A stretch of DNA of 64,000 nucleotides. Source: Imperialibacter sp. EC-SDR9 (GTDB lineage: Bacteria > Bacteroidota > Bacteroidia > Cytophagales > Cyclobacteriaceae). Shown here in pieces: positions 36,065 to 51,033 of this stretch (position 1 is the first letter of the stretch; each line of letters opens with the position of its first letter). The notes under the pieces were generated by a model, which saw nothing but the letters and a program-made list of their open reading frames with translations, was not told the origin of the DNA and searched no databases. Position numbers and translations under genes: made by a program. Where the stretch lies: the NCBI RefSeq assembly GCF_902498805.1, contig NZ_LR701603.1, forward strand, positions 1-64,000, read 5' to 3'.

Positions 36065-36154
36065 GCTCTTTAAAGGTTTTTGGTACTTATGAATGTCTCA
36101 TAGGAAAGACAATAAATCTTGCCTTTGAGACATTTTAATTTAAAAGGAATCCAA

Positions 36155-36883
36155 ATGAGGCTTTTTCGGATTTTCATCTTCATTGCGGCGTGTCTGTCTG
36201 GGGTTTCTGTATCTGGACAGGAAACAGATAAAACGGCTACAGCCCCCACTGGCAGCAGCAAAGGAGGCGCATGGGGCTATTTTGGCTTGCGTGGAGGTGC
36301 GCATTTCAGTGAAGTGCTTTTCAGCGATACGTTCAGGCCTGTGAATATGCAGACGAGCTTTGTTTACGGTAAACAATATGGTGCTGTTGGAAAGCTCTTT
36401 CTGGCGGAACATGCGGGTATTCAAGTGGAAGTAAACTACATCGAGAAAGGCTACAAGCAGCTCCTCGACTCGGGTTTTTATACCACCAAAATGAATTATT
36501 TGGAAATCCCTTTGCTGATGAATGCCTATCTCGGAAAGCAAAAGACCCAATTTTTTGTGAACATGGGGCCCTACCTGGAGATATTCCTCAATCAGAAGGA
36601 CGAACTGCAGGGAGTGGTGAAGGATGGCGAAGAGTTTTATCGGTTTGATCCGAATGTGGATCGAACCATAGGTTATGGGCTGAGAGCATCGGGAGGGCTC
36701 AACAGACTATTCAGCTTCGGGCTGCTACAGCTTGAAGGAGGTCTGGAGGTCACCATCAGCGATATGATTTTTTCAAACAGGCTCCTTTCTACTATCCCCG
36801 ACAGCTCCAAGCACCTGGTAGGCTTTGTGTCTTTGGCCTACATGATTCCCATAGGCAAAAAGCCTGACACTGGCGGACAGTAA
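36155..36883 (+). CDS. Outer-membrane beta-barrel protein (PorT-like)
   Basis: A 242-residue exported protein: signal peptide about 1-24 (MRLFRIFIFIAACLSGVSVSG), short linker, then eight or so amphipathic strands (GYFGLRGGAHFSEVLFSD ... QTSFVYGKQYGAVGKLFLAEHAGIQVEVNYIEKGY ... YLEIPLLMNAYLGKQKTQFFVNMGPYL). This is the pattern of the outer-membrane beta-barrel family 2 found throughout Bacteroidota. The YLEIPLL and GPYL segments are typical. The ATG at 36155 gives a clean signal peptide; an upstream TTG frame does not. No partner genes are adjacent, and the role is unknown. Confidence 0.8.
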   Translation: MRLFRIFIFIAACLSGVSVSGQETDKTATAPTGSSKGGAWGYFGLRGGAHFSEVLFSDTFRPVNMQTSFVYGKQYGAVGKLFLAEHAGIQVEVNYIEKGYKQLLDSGFYTTKMNYLEIPLLMNAYLGKQKTQFFVNMGPYLEIFLNQKDELQGVVKDGEEFYRFDPNVDRTIGYGLRASGGLNRLFSFGLLQLEGGLEVTISDMIFSNRLLSTIPDSSKHLVGFVSLAYMIPIGKKPDTGGQ

Positions 36884-43969: not shown

Positions 43970-44019
43970 ATTTGGTTTTAGGAATCAAATCTGCTTACAT
44001 TAGATTTGGTTTTAGGAAT
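43970..44019 (+). promoter_or_regulatory. Direct-repeat operator and promoter of the first PadR gene
   Basis: The 16-base sequence atttggttttaggaat occurs twice, at 43970-43985 and 44004-44019, 34 bases apart. The second copy overlaps TAGATTTG (44001-44008), a full match to the Bacteroidota -7 box, so a regulator bound there would block transcription. The PadR start codon is at 44034. Confidence 0.5.
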
Positions 44020-44033
44020 ATAATACGTAGACT

Positions 44034-44357
44034 ATGAAGTTAGGAGCATTTGAAGAATTGGTATTACTAGCTGTAGGCTCACTGGGCGATGAGGCTTATG
44101 GAGTAGCGATAAAGGAAACGCTACAGCAAAAAATTGGCAAAAATCCCAGCATTGGTGCCCTGCACTCTGCCCTTTACCGGTTGGAGGATAAGGGCTGTGT
44201 AACGTCTGAGGAAGGCGGTGCGACAACAGAACGGGGTGGTCGCCGGAAGAAGTTTTATAAGCTGACGGCCTATGGCATTACCATGCTGGAAGAAGCCAAT
44301 CAATTGCGAATGGAGTTTGCCCGTCAGGTGCCAGGGCTAAACTTAAGCACGGAGTAA
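44034..44357 (+). CDS. PadR family transcriptional regulator (array unit 1)
   Basis: A 107-residue PadR winged-helix regulator. It begins MKLGAFEELVLLAVGSLGDEAYGVAI, the standard helix-1/2 start, followed by recognition helix region IGALHSALYRLEDKGCVTSEEGG, the wing ERGGRRKKFYKLTAYGI and a short C-terminal helix for dimerisation. No effector domain. PadR proteins usually repress their own operon and a membrane transporter. It is 79 bases upstream of the first prefix-permease gene. The direct-repeat operator candidate lies immediately before it. Three other PadR genes in this window share the start -FEELVLL- or -LEELVLL-. Confidence 0.92.
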   Translation: MKLGAFEELVLLAVGSLGDEAYGVAIKETLQQKIGKNPSIGALHSALYRLEDKGCVTSEEGGATTERGGRRKKFYKLTAYGITMLEEANQLRMEFARQVPGLNLSTE

Positions 44358-44436: not shown

Positions 44437-47004
44437 ATGTCAAATAGAAAGATACATCCACCCCGCCTCGCCGACCGCTTCCTGCAGTGGTTCTGCTCTG
44501 AAGAAGTGCTGGAAACGCTTCAGGGGGATTTGTATGAGCTATATGAGAGGCGGAGAGAGAGAAGGGGAAAGCTGCTGGCCGATATTTACTACGCATTCGA
44601 CGTGCTAAGTGCACTTCGGCCATTTGCATTTGAAAGGAAAAGGTCAAACTCAAATTATACAACGATGTTTCAACATTACTTAACCATTTCGTGGCGAAAC
44701 CTTCGGGTCAACCGCCTCTACTCGCTTCTTAATATATCGGGACTGGCCGTCGGTTTAACCTGCGGCATACTTCTGCTATTGTGGATTTCGCATGAGCTGA
44801 GTTATGATACTTTTCATAAAAACCAGCCAAACATCTACCAATTGATGCGTCATGAGGTAATGAGCGGTGAATACTTCACAGGCGATGTTACGCCTGCACC
44901 ATTAGGGCCGAGCCTCAAGAGTGGCATGCCCGAAGTAGTTTTTGCTACCCGTACGCTTGGGGCTGGCAAACAGCTGGTGAACGCAGGGCACGAAAACACC
45001 TATGAAGCGGTACTTTATGCGGATCCCGATTTTTTTAACATAATGACCTTCCCGTCTGTTACGGGGAATGCGATAGAAGCTTTAAATTCTCCCGGCAGTG
45101 TGGTCATTACCGAGCGAACTGCCAAAAAGTTATTTGAGCATACGGACCCAATAGGAAAGGCGATCACCGTTAATAATACCGACGAATTTTTGGTGGCGGC
45201 AGTGGTCCGGGACGTTCCCACCAATAGCTCCATCCGGTTTGATATTGTCGCTCCGTTCAGCGGATATGAGCAAAACAGAAAGCTTAAATGGGATAATAAT
45301 TCCTTCCAGACATGGATAATGCTTGCTCCGGCCACGAATTTGCTTGCCTTTAATGAAAAAATAGATGGCGTGGTTGAAGAGCATTTGGACAACGAAGAGG
45401 TTCATTTGTTTGCTTTTCCCATCGAACGCCTGCACCTCTATGGCCACTTTAACAACGGAAAGCCCGATGGTGGCAAGATAGTCTTTGTGTACCTTGTAGG
45501 AGCCCTGGGAGTGTTTATTTTGTTGCTTGCCTGTGTGAACTTTATGAACCTGGCCACGGCACGTTCTGAACGGAGGGCAAAGGAAGTGGGGATCAGGAAG
45601 GTGATAGGGGCGCAACGAAGGATCATTGTTGGCCAGTTTTTAACTGAGGCAATGATGATCACTTTTTTTGGCCTGTTCTTAAGCATTGTAGCGGTCAACC
45701 TCCTGTTGCCATCATTTAACGAACTCACAGGTAAGGACCTGTCAATGTCACTGGCCAACTGGCAACTATGGTCGTCTGTGTTGGCTCTCGGCTGGGTTAC
45801 CGGCATGGTGGCTGGGAGCTATCCGGCATTTTTCCTCAGTGGCTTCAAACCTGTACAAGCCGTAACGGGTCTGGGTAAAGCTGGAAAGGGAGCTTCTATT
45901 TTCCGTCGTGCGCTGGTAACGTTTCAATTTTTTGTGTCCATCTTCCTGATTATATCTACCATTGTCATTTATGTCCAACTCGACCACATTCAGGGCCGGC
46001 CACTGGGATACGACCAGGAAAACCTGATCGAACTACCGGTGCGTGGAGACATGGCCAAAGCATTTGATCTTTTTAAGAATGACCTGCTACAAGTGCAGGG
46101 CGTAACGGCGGTATCTGCCGGAGGAGATAATCTCATCAGGGTAGGTGGAGGCCTCACTGGTTTTCAGTGGCCGGGAAAGGGGCCCGACGAAGATTTCCCC
46201 ATCAACATTACCTGGGTGCATTACGATTGGGTGGAAGCAAGTGGCTTGACAATGGCAGATGGCAGAGATTTCAGCCCGGCGTTTGGCGCCGACTCCCTGG
46301 CTTGTTTAGTCAACGAAACCGCCGCCAGGCGAATGAGGTTGGAACAGCCTGTGGGAACTCACCTGGGCGACAATAATTACATTGTGGGTGTGGTAAAGGA
46401 TTTTGTATATAATGACCCCACCAGCGATCCCGAGCCCCTTGTAATTTACCTTGGAACTAACCGGATCAGCCATATTTTTGTGCGCTTTCAGAACGACCAG
46501 GACTGGCAGAAGAGAATTGGTCAGATTGAGGAAATATTCGGGAGCTACTTTCCGACTTATCCCTTCGAAATGCATTTCACCAAAGATGAGTATCAGAAGC
46601 GCTTTGAGGTGATTCGGTCAATGCGTGGCATGGCCATTCTTTTTAGTGGATTAGCCATCTTCATCGCCTGTCTGGGCTTGATAGGTCTTTCAGCTTACGT
46701 GGCCGAACGACGAAAAAAGGAAGTGGGTATTCGTAAAGTGCTGGGTGCCACAATTTCGAATATAAGTATCGCTCTTTCTGTGGATTTCCTTAAGCCTGTA
46801 ATTTTGTCCTTTCTTTTGGCAGCGCCCCTGGCAGGATGGCTGTTTGACACGGGATTGGACGATATTGACTATAGGATAGAGCTCTCCTGGTGGATATTTG
46901 CCCTGGCCGGGGGGCTGGCTTTGTCGCTGGCATGCCTGATGGTGAGTTATCATGCTATTAAGGCGTCAACAGCCAATTCTGTAGAGTCCCTGAGAACTGA
47001 GTAA
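44437..47004 (+). CDS. Prefix-domain ABC transporter permease (array unit 1)
   Basis: An 855-residue permease of the MacB/FtsX group. Residues about 1-75 form a cytoplasmic helical prefix (PPRLADRFLQWFCSEEVLETLQGDLYELYERR), followed by an NSNYTTMFQHYLTISWRN junction. Then come TM1, a periplasmic MacB-core domain (about 125-360), an FtsX domain with three helices (signature ARSERRAKEVGIRKVIGA), a fifth helix, a second periplasmic domain (about 525-730) and a second FtsX domain (AERRKKEVGIRKVLGA) ending SVESLRTE. Eight helices in all. NCBI names this architecture permease prefix domain 2. No ABC ATPase is adjacent. A GTG at 44413 would add eight residues; ATG 44437 is preferred. The substrate is unknown; antimicrobial peptide or envelope export is a family-level guess. 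Confidence 0.85.
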   Translation: MSNRKIHPPRLADRFLQWFCSEEVLETLQGDLYELYERRRERRGKLLADIYYAFDVLSALRPFAFERKRSNSNYTTMFQHYLTISWRNLRVNRLYSLLNISGLAVGLTCGILLLLWISHELSYDTFHKNQPNIYQLMRHEVMSGEYFTGDVTPAPLGPSLKSGMPEVVFATRTLGAGKQLVNAGHENTYEAVLYADPDFFNIMTFPSVTGNAIEALNSPGSVVITERTAKKLFEHTDPIGKAITVNNTDEFLVAAVVRDVPTNSSIRFDIVAPFSGYEQNRKLKWDNNSFQTWIMLAPATNLLAFNEKIDGVVEEHLDNEEVHLFAFPIERLHLYGHFNNGKPDGGKIVFVYLVGALGVFILLLACVNFMNLATARSERRAKEVGIRKVIGAQRRIIVGQFLTEAMMITFFGLFLSIVAVNLLLPSFNELTGKDLSMSLANWQLWSSVLALGWVTGMVAGSYPAFFLSGFKPVQAVTGLGKAGKGASIFRRALVTFQFFVSIFLIISTIVIYVQLDHIQGRPLGYDQENLIELPVRGDMAKAFDLFKNDLLQVQGVTAVSAGGDNLIRVGGGLTGFQWPGKGPDEDFPINITWVHYDWVEASGLTMADGRDFSPAFGADSLACLVNETAARRMRLEQPVGTHLGDNNYIVGVVKDFVYNDPTSDPEPLVIYLGTNRISHIFVRFQNDQDWQKRIGQIEEIFGSYFPTYPFEMHFTKDEYQKRFEVIRSMRGMAILFSGLAIFIACLGLIGLSAYVAERRKKEVGIRKVLGATISNISIALSVDFLKPVILSFLLAAPLAGWLFDTGLDDIDYRIELSWWIFALAGGLALSLACLMVSYHAIKASTANSVESLRTE

Positions 47005-47039
47005 TCTCTAAAAACAATTTATTCTTGCCTTCGGTACGG

Positions 47040-47107
47040 TTGATATATGTTATATATAGTATAACATATATCAACTCTTTCCGTATATTTGTTATACTAT
47101 ATATAAC
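47040..47107 (+). promoter_or_regulatory. Double operator and promoter of the second PadR gene
   Basis: A palindrome with perfect 15-bp arms (ttgatatatgttata 47040-47054; tataacatatatcaa 47060-47074) contains GTTATATATAGTATAAC at 47049-47065. The exact reverse complement of that 17-mer lies at 47091-47107. Between and abutting them is TATATTTG (47084-47091), a -7 box. The arrangement predicts two operator copies flanking the promoter, 10 bases before the ATG at 47117. Confidence 0.65.
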
Positions 47108-47116
47108 TAATAGCAA

Positions 47117-47452
47117 ATGGAAAAGGAATACATAGGTGAACTGGAAGAGCTGGTGTTGCTCTTGATCGTTATGCTGAAGGATGATGCCTATGGGCTGGCC
47201 ATCCGCAAAGCATTGAAGGAACAGGCGAGCCGCACGGTAACCATTGGGGCTGTGCATGGGACAGTGAATCGCCTTGAAGGCAAGGGGTTTATTGAATCGA
47301 GACTTGGTGGTGCCACCGAGGAAAGAGGTGGCAGGCACAAAAGGATTTTTAGCCTCACCGCTTCTGGCAGGAAAGTGTTGGAAAGGAGCCGTGATGTGAA
47401 GGTGAATTTGTGGAGGCAGATTCCTGAATTGGCCATCAATAAGCTGGGATAA
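47117..47452 (+). CDS. PadR family transcriptional regulator (array unit 2)
   Basis: A 111-residue PadR regulator starting MEKEYIGELEELVLLLIVMLKDDAYGLAI, with recognition-helix segment VTIGAVHGTVNRLEGKGFIESRLGG and wing EERGGRHKRIFSLTASGRKVLERS. No ligand-binding domain beyond the short C-terminal helix. Its start follows a palindromic double operator by ten bases, the strongest regulatory signal in the window. It precedes the permease gene by only six bases, so regulator and permease are a single transcript and the permease level should feed back on PadR synthesis. It diverges from the other PadR copies outside the core, so it is not a recent duplicate. Confidence 0.92.
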   Translation: MEKEYIGELEELVLLLIVMLKDDAYGLAIRKALKEQASRTVTIGAVHGTVNRLEGKGFIESRLGGATEERGGRHKRIFSLTASGRKVLERSRDVKVNLWRQIPELAINKLG

Positions 47453-47458
47453 TAGTCT

Positions 47459-50059
47459 ATGGCTGCATCCAAAAATCAACGACCTCCCAAGTCGGCAGAC
47501 AAACTCCTTTCATGGTTCGTCAAAGACGACCTGCTGGATGAAATCCTGGGCGACCTCTCAGAATACTACCTGGAGCTTGCTGACCGGCCCAAGTGGAAGA
47601 GGAGCCTTTTCTACTGGTTCCATGTGCTCCATTTTCTGCGGCCATTTGCACTGAAAAGATTCATAAGGTCAAACTCAAATTATACAACCATGTTTAAGCA
47701 CTATTTCAAAATTTCCTGGAGGAATCTCCTTCGGAACAAAGGCTACTCTCTCATCAACATTGGTGGATTGGCGGCTGGGATGACGGTAGCCATCCTCATC
47801 AGTCTGTGGATCTACGACGAACTCTCTTTTAATAAGTATCACAAAAACTACGACACTATCGCTAAAGTCTACCGTACCAATAAATTTGACAGTTTCGCCA
47901 GCACGGTTCATGCGCCGGGGCTTGCCTCTGTACTCAAGACCGACTATGGAGATTTTTTTGAAGACGTGGCACTTGTGAGAGCCAGGCTGGAGGAACGGGT
48001 TATTGCTGTTGGAGAAAAGAAGTTTTCACAAAGCGGCTACTTTATGCAGGACGGTGGGCCGCAAATCCTGACGCTTGACATGAAATACGGCAGCCAGACC
48101 GGGCTGAAAGAAATGAACTCCATTATGTTATCGTCATCACTTGCTGGCAAGCTTTTCGGCGAGGCAGACCCTGTTGGGGAGATGGTGACCATGGATGCCA
48201 CCACCAGCCTACAGGTGACTGGTGTGTATGAAGACCTTCCGAAAAACACTGAATTCAGTGAAGCGTCCTACCTGGCACCTGCCGAGCTATATGTAAATGG
48301 CTGGACAACACTCAATGTGTGGGATAATTACTTTACCTACATCTATCTCCAAATCAAACCAGAGCATTCGTTTGATGAGATATCAGCTACCATCGCTGAG
48401 GCAATGATGCCTCATGTTGACGAAGAAACAGCAGAGTCAGAGCCGAGAATATTTCTTCAGCCAATGAGCCAGTGGCATCTTTATTCGGAATTTGAGAACG
48501 GCACGCCGGTGACAAGCCAGAGGCTGAAAGCCGTTTGGTACAATGGCATCATTGGCGCATTCGTGTTATTGCTGGCCTGCATCAATTTCATGAACCTCAG
48601 CACAGCCAGGTCCGAAAAACGTGCCAAGGAAGTTGGGATACTCAAAGCTCTTGGTTCGCACCGCAGTCAGCTGATACAGCAGTTTTTTGGTGAGTCCATG
48701 CTGGTCACTTTACTTGCCTTTATAGTCGCCATTTTCTTAGTAGTGCTCACGCTGCCCTGGTTCAATGTGGTGGCAGCGAAGGCCATGGTATTCCCATGGA
48801 CAAACCCTCTCTTTTGGCTGGCCGTTTTATCGATTGTTCTGGCAACGGGATTGTTGGCTGGTAGCTATCCTGCTCTCTTCCTTTCATCGCTTAATGCTGT
48901 AAAGGTACTGAAGGGAACTTTCAAGGCCGGTCGTTTAGCATCGTTGCCCAGGAAGGTGTTGGTGGTCATCCAATTTACCGTGTCGATCAGCCTGATCATT
49001 GGCACGCTGGTAGTGTATCAGCAACTGGAATACGCCAAGAACCGGCCTGTTGGCTATTCCAGGGAGGGATTGATCTCGCTGAGGAGTGCTTCGAAGGAGT
49101 TCAAAGGAAAGTACCTGGTGCTAAGAAATGAACTGAAGCAAACAGGCATGGTGGAGGAAATTGCCCAGGCCAACTATTCGGTGACTGACACCAGGGGCTG
49201 GAATGGTGGATTTGCCTGGCATGGAGAAAAATATGAGCAGACATTCAACACTATTTTTGTGACGTATGAGTACGGCAAAACCGTCGGGTTGCAATTCGTT
49301 GATGGCAGAGACTTTTCCAGAGACATAACGAGCGATAAAAGTGGCATCATCATCAACGAGTCAGCCGCTAAGCTATTTGCGCTGGAAAATCCCGTCGGCG
49401 AAGAGCTAACATGGCAGGATAGGGGCTCATATACCATTCTCGGCGTAGTAAAAGACATGGTCAAAGGTTCCCCTTACGAACCCACCGATCCGTCAGTCAT
49501 GTTCTTGGGAGAGTTCGATATGTCGTGGTTGTACATCCGCCTCAATCCTGATGTAAGCACACATGAGGCCCTCCCGAAAATTAGAGACGTTTTTGCAAAA
49601 CTGACACCTGCCACACCCTTCGACTACACATTTGCTGACGAGGCTTATGCACTCAAGTTTGCAGAGGAGGAGCGAATTGGTAAGCTCGGGTTTGTGTTTG
49701 CTGGCCTGGCCATTCTGATTAGCTGTATGGGATTGTTGGGACTATCAGCTTTTGTAGCTGAGCAACGCATCCGGGAAATTGGGATAAGGAAAGTACTGGG
49801 AGCATCCGTAGCGAACTTATGGCAAATGCTGTCGAAAGACTTTGTGGTGCTTGTCGTTATTTCCTGCCTGGTTGCCATGCCTTTGGCTTGGTATTTTATG
49901 GACAGATGGCTGGATAGCTTCGTATACCGATCTACGATAAGCTGGTCGGTTTTTGCCATTACCGGTGCCATTGCCTTGCTGATTACCCTGGCTACCGTAA
50001 GCTTTCAGGCTATCAAAGCAGCAACGGCTGATCCGGTGAAGTCATTGAGGACAGAATAG
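47459..50059 (+). CDS. Prefix-domain ABC transporter permease (array unit 2)
   Basis: An 866-residue member of the same class as unit 1. Prefix about 1-75 (PPKSADKLLSWFVKDDLLDEILGDLSEYYLELA), junction SNSNYTTMFKHYFKISWRN with in-frame ATG at 47690, TM1 (INIGGLAAGMTVAILISLWIYDEL), first periplasmic domain, FtsX domain with STARSEKRAKEVGILKALGS, second periplasmic domain and terminal FtsX domain (AEQRIREIGIRKVLGA), ending DPVKSLRTE. It most resembles unit 6 (61076-63691), for example in the VFPWTNPLFWLAVLS and ASLPRKVLVVIQFTVSI segments. It follows its PadR by six bases. No ATPase is encoded nearby. Confidence 0.88.
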   Translation: MAASKNQRPPKSADKLLSWFVKDDLLDEILGDLSEYYLELADRPKWKRSLFYWFHVLHFLRPFALKRFIRSNSNYTTMFKHYFKISWRNLLRNKGYSLINIGGLAAGMTVAILISLWIYDELSFNKYHKNYDTIAKVYRTNKFDSFASTVHAPGLASVLKTDYGDFFEDVALVRARLEERVIAVGEKKFSQSGYFMQDGGPQILTLDMKYGSQTGLKEMNSIMLSSSLAGKLFGEADPVGEMVTMDATTSLQVTGVYEDLPKNTEFSEASYLAPAELYVNGWTTLNVWDNYFTYIYLQIKPEHSFDEISATIAEAMMPHVDEETAESEPRIFLQPMSQWHLYSEFENGTPVTSQRLKAVWYNGIIGAFVLLLACINFMNLSTARSEKRAKEVGILKALGSHRSQLIQQFFGESMLVTLLAFIVAIFLVVLTLPWFNVVAAKAMVFPWTNPLFWLAVLSIVLATGLLAGSYPALFLSSLNAVKVLKGTFKAGRLASLPRKVLVVIQFTVSISLIIGTLVVYQQLEYAKNRPVGYSREGLISLRSASKEFKGKYLVLRNELKQTGMVEEIAQANYSVTDTRGWNGGFAWHGEKYEQTFNTIFVTYEYGKTVGLQFVDGRDFSRDITSDKSGIIINESAAKLFALENPVGEELTWQDRGSYTILGVVKDMVKGSPYEPTDPSVMFLGEFDMSWLYIRLNPDVSTHEALPKIRDVFAKLTPATPFDYTFADEAYALKFAEEERIGKLGFVFAGLAILISCMGLLGLSAFVAEQRIREIGIRKVLGASVANLWQMLSKDFVVLVVISCLVAMPLAWYFMDRWLDSFVYRSTISWSVFAITGAIALLITLATVSFQAIKAATADPVKSLRTE

Positions 50060-50116: not shown

Positions 50117-50674
50117 ATGGCTACAGAAGTAATGAAGCGGTTGATTAATGTAGACGAATACTACAAAATGGCAGAGGTGGGCATACTGAAGCCAGGTGAT
50201 CGTGTGGAGTTAATTAACGGTGAAATATATGAGATGAGTCCTATTGGAAATAAGCACTATAGCGCAGTTAATAAGGCCAGTAACTTTTTGAAAGAGGTAT
50301 TGCTTAAAAGCGTGATTGTCAGTGTGCAGAACCCCATCAGAATCAATGAGGGAAATGAACCGGAGCCTGATATTTGTTTGCTAAAGCCCCGAAGTGATTT
50401 TTATGTCAATCAATTTCCGGGGCCTAATGATGCTTTACTTATTATAGAAGTAGCTGATAGCTCACTTCAGTTTGACAGGGAAGTAAAAAGTGTCACATAC
50501 GCACTGGCAGGCATACCTGTTTATTGGATTATTAACCTGAAAGAAAACGTTCTGGAGGTTTATAGCGATCCGGGGAAAGGCAGATACCAATCATCTTCGT
50601 TCAAAAATATAGACAGTAAGGTATCCCTTCCAATCATTGATTTGGAAATACCTGTTAGTGAAATAATGATTTGA
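50117..50674 (+). CDS. Uma2 family endonuclease-like protein
   Basis: A 185-residue protein of the Uma2/DUF820 family, which adopts a PD-(D/E)xK nuclease fold. Visible motifs: RVELINGEIYEMSPIG (about 30-45), the metal site region EPEPDICLLKPRSDFY, and the core DALLIIEVADSSLQFDREVKSVTYALAGIPVYWI with the acidic and lysine residues. The real function is unclear: the family is abundant in cyanobacteria and some Bacteroidota, often as mobile or selfish genes. It sits between permease unit 2 and the MITE and is followed by a broken second copy of its own start. It does not look like part of the permease operons. Confidence 0.8.
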   Translation: MATEVMKRLINVDEYYKMAEVGILKPGDRVELINGEIYEMSPIGNKHYSAVNKASNFLKEVLLKSVIVSVQNPIRINEGNEPEPDICLLKPRSDFYVNQFPGPNDALLIIEVADSSLQFDREVKSVTYALAGIPVYWIINLKENVLEVYSDPGKGRYQSSSFKNIDSKVSLPIIDLEIPVSEIMI

Positions 50675-50726: not shown

Positions 50727-50757
50727 TAGCCTCTCTCAGAGGCTATTATTTTTTTGT
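50725..50757 (+). terminator. Terminator after the Uma2 gene
   Basis: Arms aatagcct (50725-50732) and aggctatt (50740-50747) with a seven-base loop, followed by a long T run to 50755. Confidence 0.75.
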
Positions 50758-50764
50758 ATCTATT

Positions 50765-50970
50765 TAACGTGAGTTCGATATAAGAATGTAACAAAACATC
50801 ACCGAGGGGCGTCATTGCGGAAATTTTCTTCAGATATTTTTCTCATCTGAAGAAAATTATCCGCAATCTCTGCCCCCAAGACATTTGAGATTCCGGACAA
50901 ATATTGGCCTGTTTGAATTCTAGGCCAATATTTTCCGGAATGACGACATTTTTATATCGAACTCACGTTA
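50765..50970. mobile_element. 206-bp MITE with IS982-like ends
   Basis: Perfect 19-bp terminal inverted repeats taacgtgagttcgatataa (50765-50783) and its complement (50952-50970) frame a sequence with no gene. Two large internal hairpins lie at 50814-50867 and 50890-50941. The flanking attt on both sides (50762-50765 and 50970-50973, overlapping the repeat edge) is compatible with a short target duplication. The ends match the IS982-type end at 178-192 in 14 of 15 bases, so the element is probably mobilised by such a transposase in trans. It sits in the leader region of the third PadR gene. Confidence 0.75.
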
Positions 50971-51022
50971 TTTACTTAACAAAACTGAAACTAATATATT
51001 ATCTTCACGTTTGTTAAGTAAA
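50971..51022 (+). promoter_or_regulatory. Inverted-repeat operator of the third PadR gene
   Basis: Perfect 13-bp arms tttacttaacaaa (50971-50983) and tttgttaagtaaa (51010-51022), centres 39 bases apart, flank an AT-rich core. The second arm covers the expected start region (CACGTTTG near a -7 box), 12 bases before the ATG at 51034. The left arm begins directly at the MITE end. Confidence 0.55.
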
Positions 51023-51033
51023 TGAAATGGCAA

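Follow-up and report, generated by a model that had tools for sequence, protein, structure and literature searches.

A pair of palindromic putative operators at the −7 promoter of a PadR–permease unit in Imperialibacter sp. EC-SDR9

The unit-2 locus and its promoter

The window, by which we mean the whole 64 000-nucleotide stretch of DNA that was analysed, holds three PadR–permease units, whose PadR genes lie at 44034, 47117 and 51022, and a fourth PadR gene (L018, match from 63864) crosses its end. In unit 2, a PadR regulator of 111 residues is encoded on the forward strand at 47117–47452 (PF03551, 38.2 bits against a cut-off of 27), followed on the same strand at 47459–50059 by a permease of 866 residues with permease prefix domain 2, MacB_PCD and FtsX domains, which scores 51 bits against the permease prefix domain 2 transporter model NF038404 (cut-off 35). 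Because only six bases separate the stop codon of the PadR gene from the ATG of the permease gene, the two probably form one operon with a common promoter. The upstream permease gene has its stop at 47004, and the first palindrome described below begins 35 bases after it. Elsewhere in the window, at 50751–50984, between unit 3 and an ORF at 50117 which we take to be Uma2-like, two arms of 39 nt, 82% complementary and separated by 156 nt, enclose two perfect inverted repeats; nested hairpins or a small mobile element without coding sequence may account for them. An inverted repeat with 18-nt arms (89%) at 36092–36134, just upstream of an ORF at 36155, is a possible operator or hairpin.

The unit-2 regulator is a PadR protein by profile and by fold, a winged helix with a further helix at its C terminus. 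Its sequence-profile matches to PadR chains reached an E-value of 5.1e-9 at best, and a Foldseek search with its AlphaFold2 model (mean pLDDT 84.2; helix 3 at residues 43–56, wing strands at 59–63 and 76–80) gave PadR or LmrR structures as seven of the best eight matches (E 2.2e-4 to 5.2e-4, TMq 0.56–0.70, rmsd 3.4–9.1). The eighth was an unnamed archaeal regulator and, lower down, RosR and one Orc1 also had E ≤ 0.001.

The region before this gene carries a 17-mer, GTTATATATAGTATAAC, at 47049–47065 (forward strand) and, as the earlier note had described, its exact reverse complement downstream, at 47091–47107, with a gap of 25 bases between the two. Each 17-mer is itself a palindrome, GTTATA-N5-TATAAC, and because of this the 'inverted copy' amounts mostly to one operator present twice. 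Taking the limits from the 20-locus footprint given below, we delimit two 25-bp palindromes as putative operators, neither assigned to a strand: operator 1, ATATGTTATATATAGTATAACATAT, at 47045–47069, built on the first core and lying over the −33 region, and operator 2, ATTTGTTATACTATATATAACTAAT, at 47087–47111, built on the second core and overlapping the −7 box and the predicted transcription start. The −7 box, TATATTTG, at 47084–47091 on the forward strand, follows the Bacteroidota sigma-A consensus TAnnTTTG. The two copies said to flank this box are real, but the box does not lie wholly between them, its last G being the first base of copy 2. Around operator 1, perfect arms reach further (47039–47075, no strand assigned), and at 47039–47054 and 47060–47075 they measure 16 bp rather than the 15 bp first counted; they could form an RNA hairpin. 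Copy 1 is flanked in the window by ATAT, the consensus flanks being ATTT and AAAT, and the long arms arise from these ATAT flanks together with six further matching bases outside each side.

A loose match to the core is uninformative, because GTTATA-N5-TATAAC at up to two mismatches occurs three times in the window against 1.19 expected, a count that 12 of 100 shuffles also reach. The only exact matches in the window are the two unit-2 copies, and these are likewise the only exact matches in the whole genome (6 800 159 bases), even when the pattern is widened to GTTMTA-N5-TAKAAC. Allowing one mismatch gave 21 further places in the genome and no enrichment of the kind a wider regulon would produce, the reversed control pattern being commoner (95 vs 23). 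A wider regulon defined by this operator in its own genome was rejected on these grounds, namely no further exact site and no enrichment over the reversed control.

Conservation of the pair in related genomes

The exact double pattern was found in three of 98 genomes (the genome itself, one of the same genus and one of another genus of the family), and each of them has a PadR gene that begins 68 bases past the start of copy 1 and encodes the same recognition helix. A protein search at E ≤ 1e-35 gave 15 loci, two of them in the own genome, in 10 of the 98 family genomes, and by eye every one of the 15 has a similar pair, the weakest being that at L077. A scan of one genome per species yielded at least 80 loci, by title mostly from Cyclobacteriaceae, Flammeovirgaceae and other Cytophagales; three of the 80 genome-contig loci were lost through a misfit of the start motif (L107, a fragment with the same helix, L111 and L117), and five of 146 promoters were removed for having identical last 60 bases. 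After pooling and deduplication, 22 distinct loci among the matches listed carried the helix TIGAVHGTVNRL or a near form, two pairs among them being orthologues within the genus Imperialibacter. The pair lies in register at 20 of the 22, a footprint that is partly circular, as helix sequence decided the choice of loci and these then served to refine the motif; the centre spacing is 41–44 bp, and exactly 42 at 15 of the 20. The other two, L102, which fits at 43 after manual re-registering, and L150, which carries three copies, were excluded from the column counts. A search for the 17-mer near other PadR genes of related genomes had been suggested as a check; the pair is kept before PadRs with the same helix in other genera.

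Column counts over the 20 loci gave a symmetric 25-bp unit, ATTTGTTMTA-YWWWR-TAKAACAAAT, occurring twice, with high information at the core positions and little at most linker and outer-flank positions. At the −7 place of the registered loci, 15 of 20 have TATATTTG and 18 of 20 have TAnnTTTG. The left flank of copy 2, ATTT, coincides with the end of the −7 box, where the conservation of flank and box is indistinguishable; we assign ATTT to the operator because copy 1 has the same flanks without a −7 box. Most related loci have ATTT and AAAT as flanks, and the six bases at the outer end of each arm are not retained even in the genome of the same genus, whether judged by eye or from the columns. 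What is conserved is the 25-bp palindrome rather than the extended arms, and the long perfect arms are in part incidental.

The arms also bear on a reading in which the first palindrome serves the upstream permease gene, chiefly as a hairpin for transcript ending or RNA stability, and resembles copy 2 only secondarily. The palindrome does stand 35 bases past the permease stop, with a predicted RNA fold of −23.6 kcal/mol (z −7.1 against shuffles), but it is followed by no T run and is absent from the terminator scan, its outer arm is not shared by related loci, a different gene precedes the pair in the related genome G012 and the core is conserved jointly with the copy at the −7 box. We consider this reading exceedingly unlikely. 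Termination as the main role of the palindrome was rejected for want of a T run, of a listing in the scan and of conservation in the outer arm, while a side role as a hairpin in Imperialibacter sp. EC-SDR9 alone is possible.

In addition, 390 family genomes were searched with a query of DNA only, GTTMTA-N5-TAKAAC ... GTTMTA-N5-TAKAAC. This gave 13 places in 11 of the 390 genomes, and the reversed-pattern control gave none; the search is less circular than the helix-chosen footprint but partly dependent on it, at least six of the 11 genomes having been seen earlier and the M and K widening having come from earlier loci. At twelve of the 13 places the start codon of a PadR gene follows after 2–9 bases, and the encoded helix is VTIGAVHGT[VL]NRL. 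The thirteenth, L177 (G222 C42:145934–145992, minus strand), lies just after an FtsX-type permease gene and precedes two DUF2306 membrane-protein genes, approximately 3 kb from the PadR promoter L184 on the same strand of the same genome. From the distance, we infer that the permease before L177 is part of the L184 operon, and this genome seems to have gained a second target of the pair. L177 is the only hint of a wider regulon for this operator type.

Sister promoters and the probable regulator of the pair

The genome contains 30 small PadR genes of this kind, 28 obtained by Pfam search and two more by protein search, with six PadR matches of another type (L001–L006) excluded; a genome of the same genus (G001) contains 28. 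Most of their promoters have repeat pairs of other kinds than unit 2, although some pairs are shared. The unit 1 promoter has ATTTGGTTTTAGGAAT twice, as a 16-base perfect direct repeat with a spacing of 34 (43980–44033) that is also present in the same-genus genome, and the unit 3 promoter is a near-complete dyad with 27-nt arms at 50970–50996 and 50997–51023, 85% complementary and without a gap. At both ends of the unit 3 dyad (50970–51023) stands ATTTACTTAACAAA. Measured against shuffles, the best repeat pair reached p ≤ 0.05 at 21 of 30 promoters in the own genome and 19 of 28 in the other genome of the genus, compared with 4 of 41 control promoters (seven of 48 controls had been excluded as lying inside PadR–permease operons), although the test scores the best pair of any kind and 21 of 30 overstates the clean doublets; at p ≤ 0.01 the counts were 14 of 30, 14 of 28 and 2 of 41. 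For L015 and L026 the test picked a GC-rich hairpin that lies upstream of the promoter, for unit 2 (L020) the self-palindrome instead of the two copies, and for L050 a pair that may not be its operator pair. Nine of the 30 own-genome PadR promoters were not significant in this test, four of them (L017, L018, L029 and L046) with p > 0.3. Conservation of the doublets between the two genomes was judged by eye, over 26 reciprocal-best pairs. Among the significant promoters, a −7-like box (five of six fixed bases) overlaps the second copy in 12 of 21 in the own genome (5.8 expected) and 14 of 19 in the same-genus genome (6.2 expected); overlap with the first copy is seen in 6 of 21 and 4 of 19, respectively.

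When whole 95-bp promoters were compared, −7 box included, 9 of 435 pairs in the own genome were alike above the 99.8% shuffle level (0.87 expected); by this likeness 13 of the 30 units are linked in five groups, unit 2 with L012 and L031, and 17 are single. With nine pairs alike and 13 units grouped, the idea of fully private operators holds only in part.

The relation between promoter and protein was followed with a partial Mantel test of promoter likeness against the identity of the adjacent PadR, part by part, controlling for the rest of the protein, in a sample of 141 distinct promoters from which pairs at least 65% identical were left out (9305 of 9870 pairs used). Two peaks were obtained, at residues 43–51 (r 0.18) and 61–81 (windows with r 0.12 to 0.16), and helix 3 and the wing each gave p 0.005, the floor of 200 permutations; over helix 3 and the wing r is only 0.07 to 0.18, and shared ancestry is incompletely removed from these correlations. 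The other parts were not significant in the 141 promoters (N-terminal p 0.63, helix 2 p 0.12, C-terminal p 0.06), the C-terminal part coming close both here (p 0.060) and in the 74-promoter genome-contig set (p 0.073). In repeat runs limited to pairs below 55% identity, made without the clade and its nearest kin (112 promoters), or made on the genome-contig set alone (74), helix 3 and the wing gave p 0.003, the floor of 300 permutations. Among the 30 paralogues of the own genome helix 3 was significant (p 0.004) and the wing was not (p 0.115); in the same-genus genome (26 after deduplication) the values were 0.003 and 0.025. The AlphaFold2 helix 3 and wing strands of the unit-2 protein coincide with the two peaks, and helix 3 and the wing are the DNA contacts reported in PadR proteins (PMC6457526, PMC3506622). 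Such co-variation is what would be expected if each PadR binds its own promoter. That the approximately 30 sister operons of a genome mostly carry operator doublets which have diverged together with the helix and wing of their own PadR, and that most of these promoters are insulated from one another, is a view towards which we lean slightly.

The earlier note had named the regulator from adjacency. Its identification is helped by the conservation of the pair, by 12 of the 13 places found with DNA only and by a promoter similarity that tracks the DNA-binding surface, and these comparisons support the adjacent unit-2 PadR as the protein that binds the pair. The main binder could instead be a different regulator, perhaps a sister PadR, and cross-binding is plausible in view of the likeness of the unit 2 (L020), L012 and L031 promoters above the 99.8% shuffle level; however, the pair travels with the adjacent padR in other genomes and the exact core is confined to the unit-2 promoter in its own genome, so that we think another main binder very unlikely.

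Proposed autorepression and relation to known PadR systems

The Bacteroidota −7 box TAnnTTTG occupies −12 to −5 (PMC9723704), and the unit-2 transcript would on this basis start at about 47096, 21 bases before the ATG at 47117. Relative to this predicted start, the core of copy 1 extends from about −47 to −31 and that of copy 2 from about −5 to +12. The geometry first proposed, with one copy upstream of the promoter and one overlapping the start, agrees with the position of copy 2, but copy 1 lies over the −33 region and is not clear of the promoter.

From this arrangement, the padR–permease operon is very probably held low by autorepression through two PadR dimers on the 25-bp palindromes. 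Each palindrome is the predicted site of one dimer; the dimer at copy 1 would lie over the place of the −33 element, and at copy 2, where the end of the −7 box serves as the left arm, the predicted start would be covered. Dimers at both sites would block RNA polymerase and the operon would stay low, until a ligand loosened the PadR and released it. With the sites approximately 42 bp (four helical turns) apart, both dimers would sit on the same face of the DNA, and the spacing of 41–44 bp is kept in the unit-2 clade; as a general rule, helical phasing finds no support outside this clade, the significant pairs at the other PadR units of the genome (four doubtful pairs omitted) being spaced by 26 to 55. 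Repression is the natural reading because both copies compete with RNA polymerase, and Listeria offers precedents in small PadRs that bind their own promoters or repress them (PMC6457526, PMC6624303). We infer repression rather than activation, a shared transcript and release by an inducer; going by the family, one might guess at multidrug or envelope stress as the setting in which the permease and its PadR act.

Activation is known from PadR relatives such as AphA, and the window has no TTG at the expected −33 place. The unit-2 PadR might then activate, or act both ways, a dimer at copy 1 helping the polymerase at a promoter without a −33 box. We regard this as decidedly improbable, since a dimer at copy 2 would lie across the −7 box and the start and so stand in a blocking position, autorepression is on record for LftR, LltR and LstR (PMC6624303), and a missing −33 TTG says little given the global data on Flavobacterium johnsoniae cited in PMC7366714.

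If the sister doublets have diverged with their own PadRs in this way, the sister units would be largely independent repressor–operator pairs from which the DNA-recognition code of PadR proteins could be read, and which could supply separate pairs for Bacteroidota, where to our knowledge repressor–operator tools are scarce. From sequence comparison we obtain a 25-bp putative operator, the way in which it is placed on a Bacteroidota promoter, and numerous sister promoters whose sites seem to change along with the binding surface, and the question of how paralogous repressors avoid each other becomes directly testable. Few members of the PadR family have been studied in depth, by the account given in PMC3506622.

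Like LftR and the other Listeria PadRs, LmrR of Lactococcus and bcPadR1 of Bacillus cereus, the unit-2 regulator has a minimal PadR fold of approximately 110 residues; LmrR chains match it by sequence profile and fold, and Rv3488 and bcPadR1 (BC4206) by fold. Small PadR-2/PadR-s2 regulators, LftR with 108 residues among them (PMC6457526), are autoregulated through a partly palindromic site in their own promoter (PMC6457526, PMC3506622, PMC6624303). The unit-2 protein shares the short chain of this group (111 residues, against approximately 100–110) and keeps the helix-2 tyrosine as Y25, but lacks the helix-3 signature tyrosine, which is replaced by H47 in the profile alignment with 5dym, leaving the two-tyrosine signature incomplete. 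H47 is invariant in group A2 (11 of 11), and position 47 is H, Q or R in the 30 sister PadRs of the genome. In the PadR gene at 47117–47452, His47 is coded at 47255–47257. The operator differs too, not being the inverted motif ATGT-N8-10-ACAT: copy 2 is without it, and in copy 1 ATGT (47047–47050) and ACAT (47064–47067) are 13 bases apart. A histidine, or another residue that is not tyrosine, at the helix-3 signature place may explain the unusual operators. In contrast with the small PadR-2/PadR-s2 members, unit 2 also has a −7 promoter of the Bacteroidota type that bears two putative operators in a fixed arrangement, and its padR is followed directly by an FtsX/MacB-type permease gene.

In the acidobacterial system, which belongs to another phylum, expanded PadR regulators (TIGR03433) adjoin expanded, duplicated ADOP permeases (TIGR03434). 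Both models match unit 2, but far below their curated cut-offs, the PadR with 35.2 bits against 101.8 and the permease with 277.2 against 622.3. Bacillus subtilis PadR with operator DNA (5x11; Foldseek rank 49, E 3.1e-3) is alike in its winged-helix DNA binding but belongs to the PadR-1 subfamily and is longer, with 181 residues in the matched chain. In the open-licence PMC literature we found no paper on Cytophagales PadR operators or Bacteroidota PadR–permease operons, which argues only weakly that none exists. A PadR that regulates itself through its own operator is known and ordinary; what appears to be new is the type of operator, its doublet on a −7 promoter and the set of sister promoters that seem to have diversified together with their regulators.
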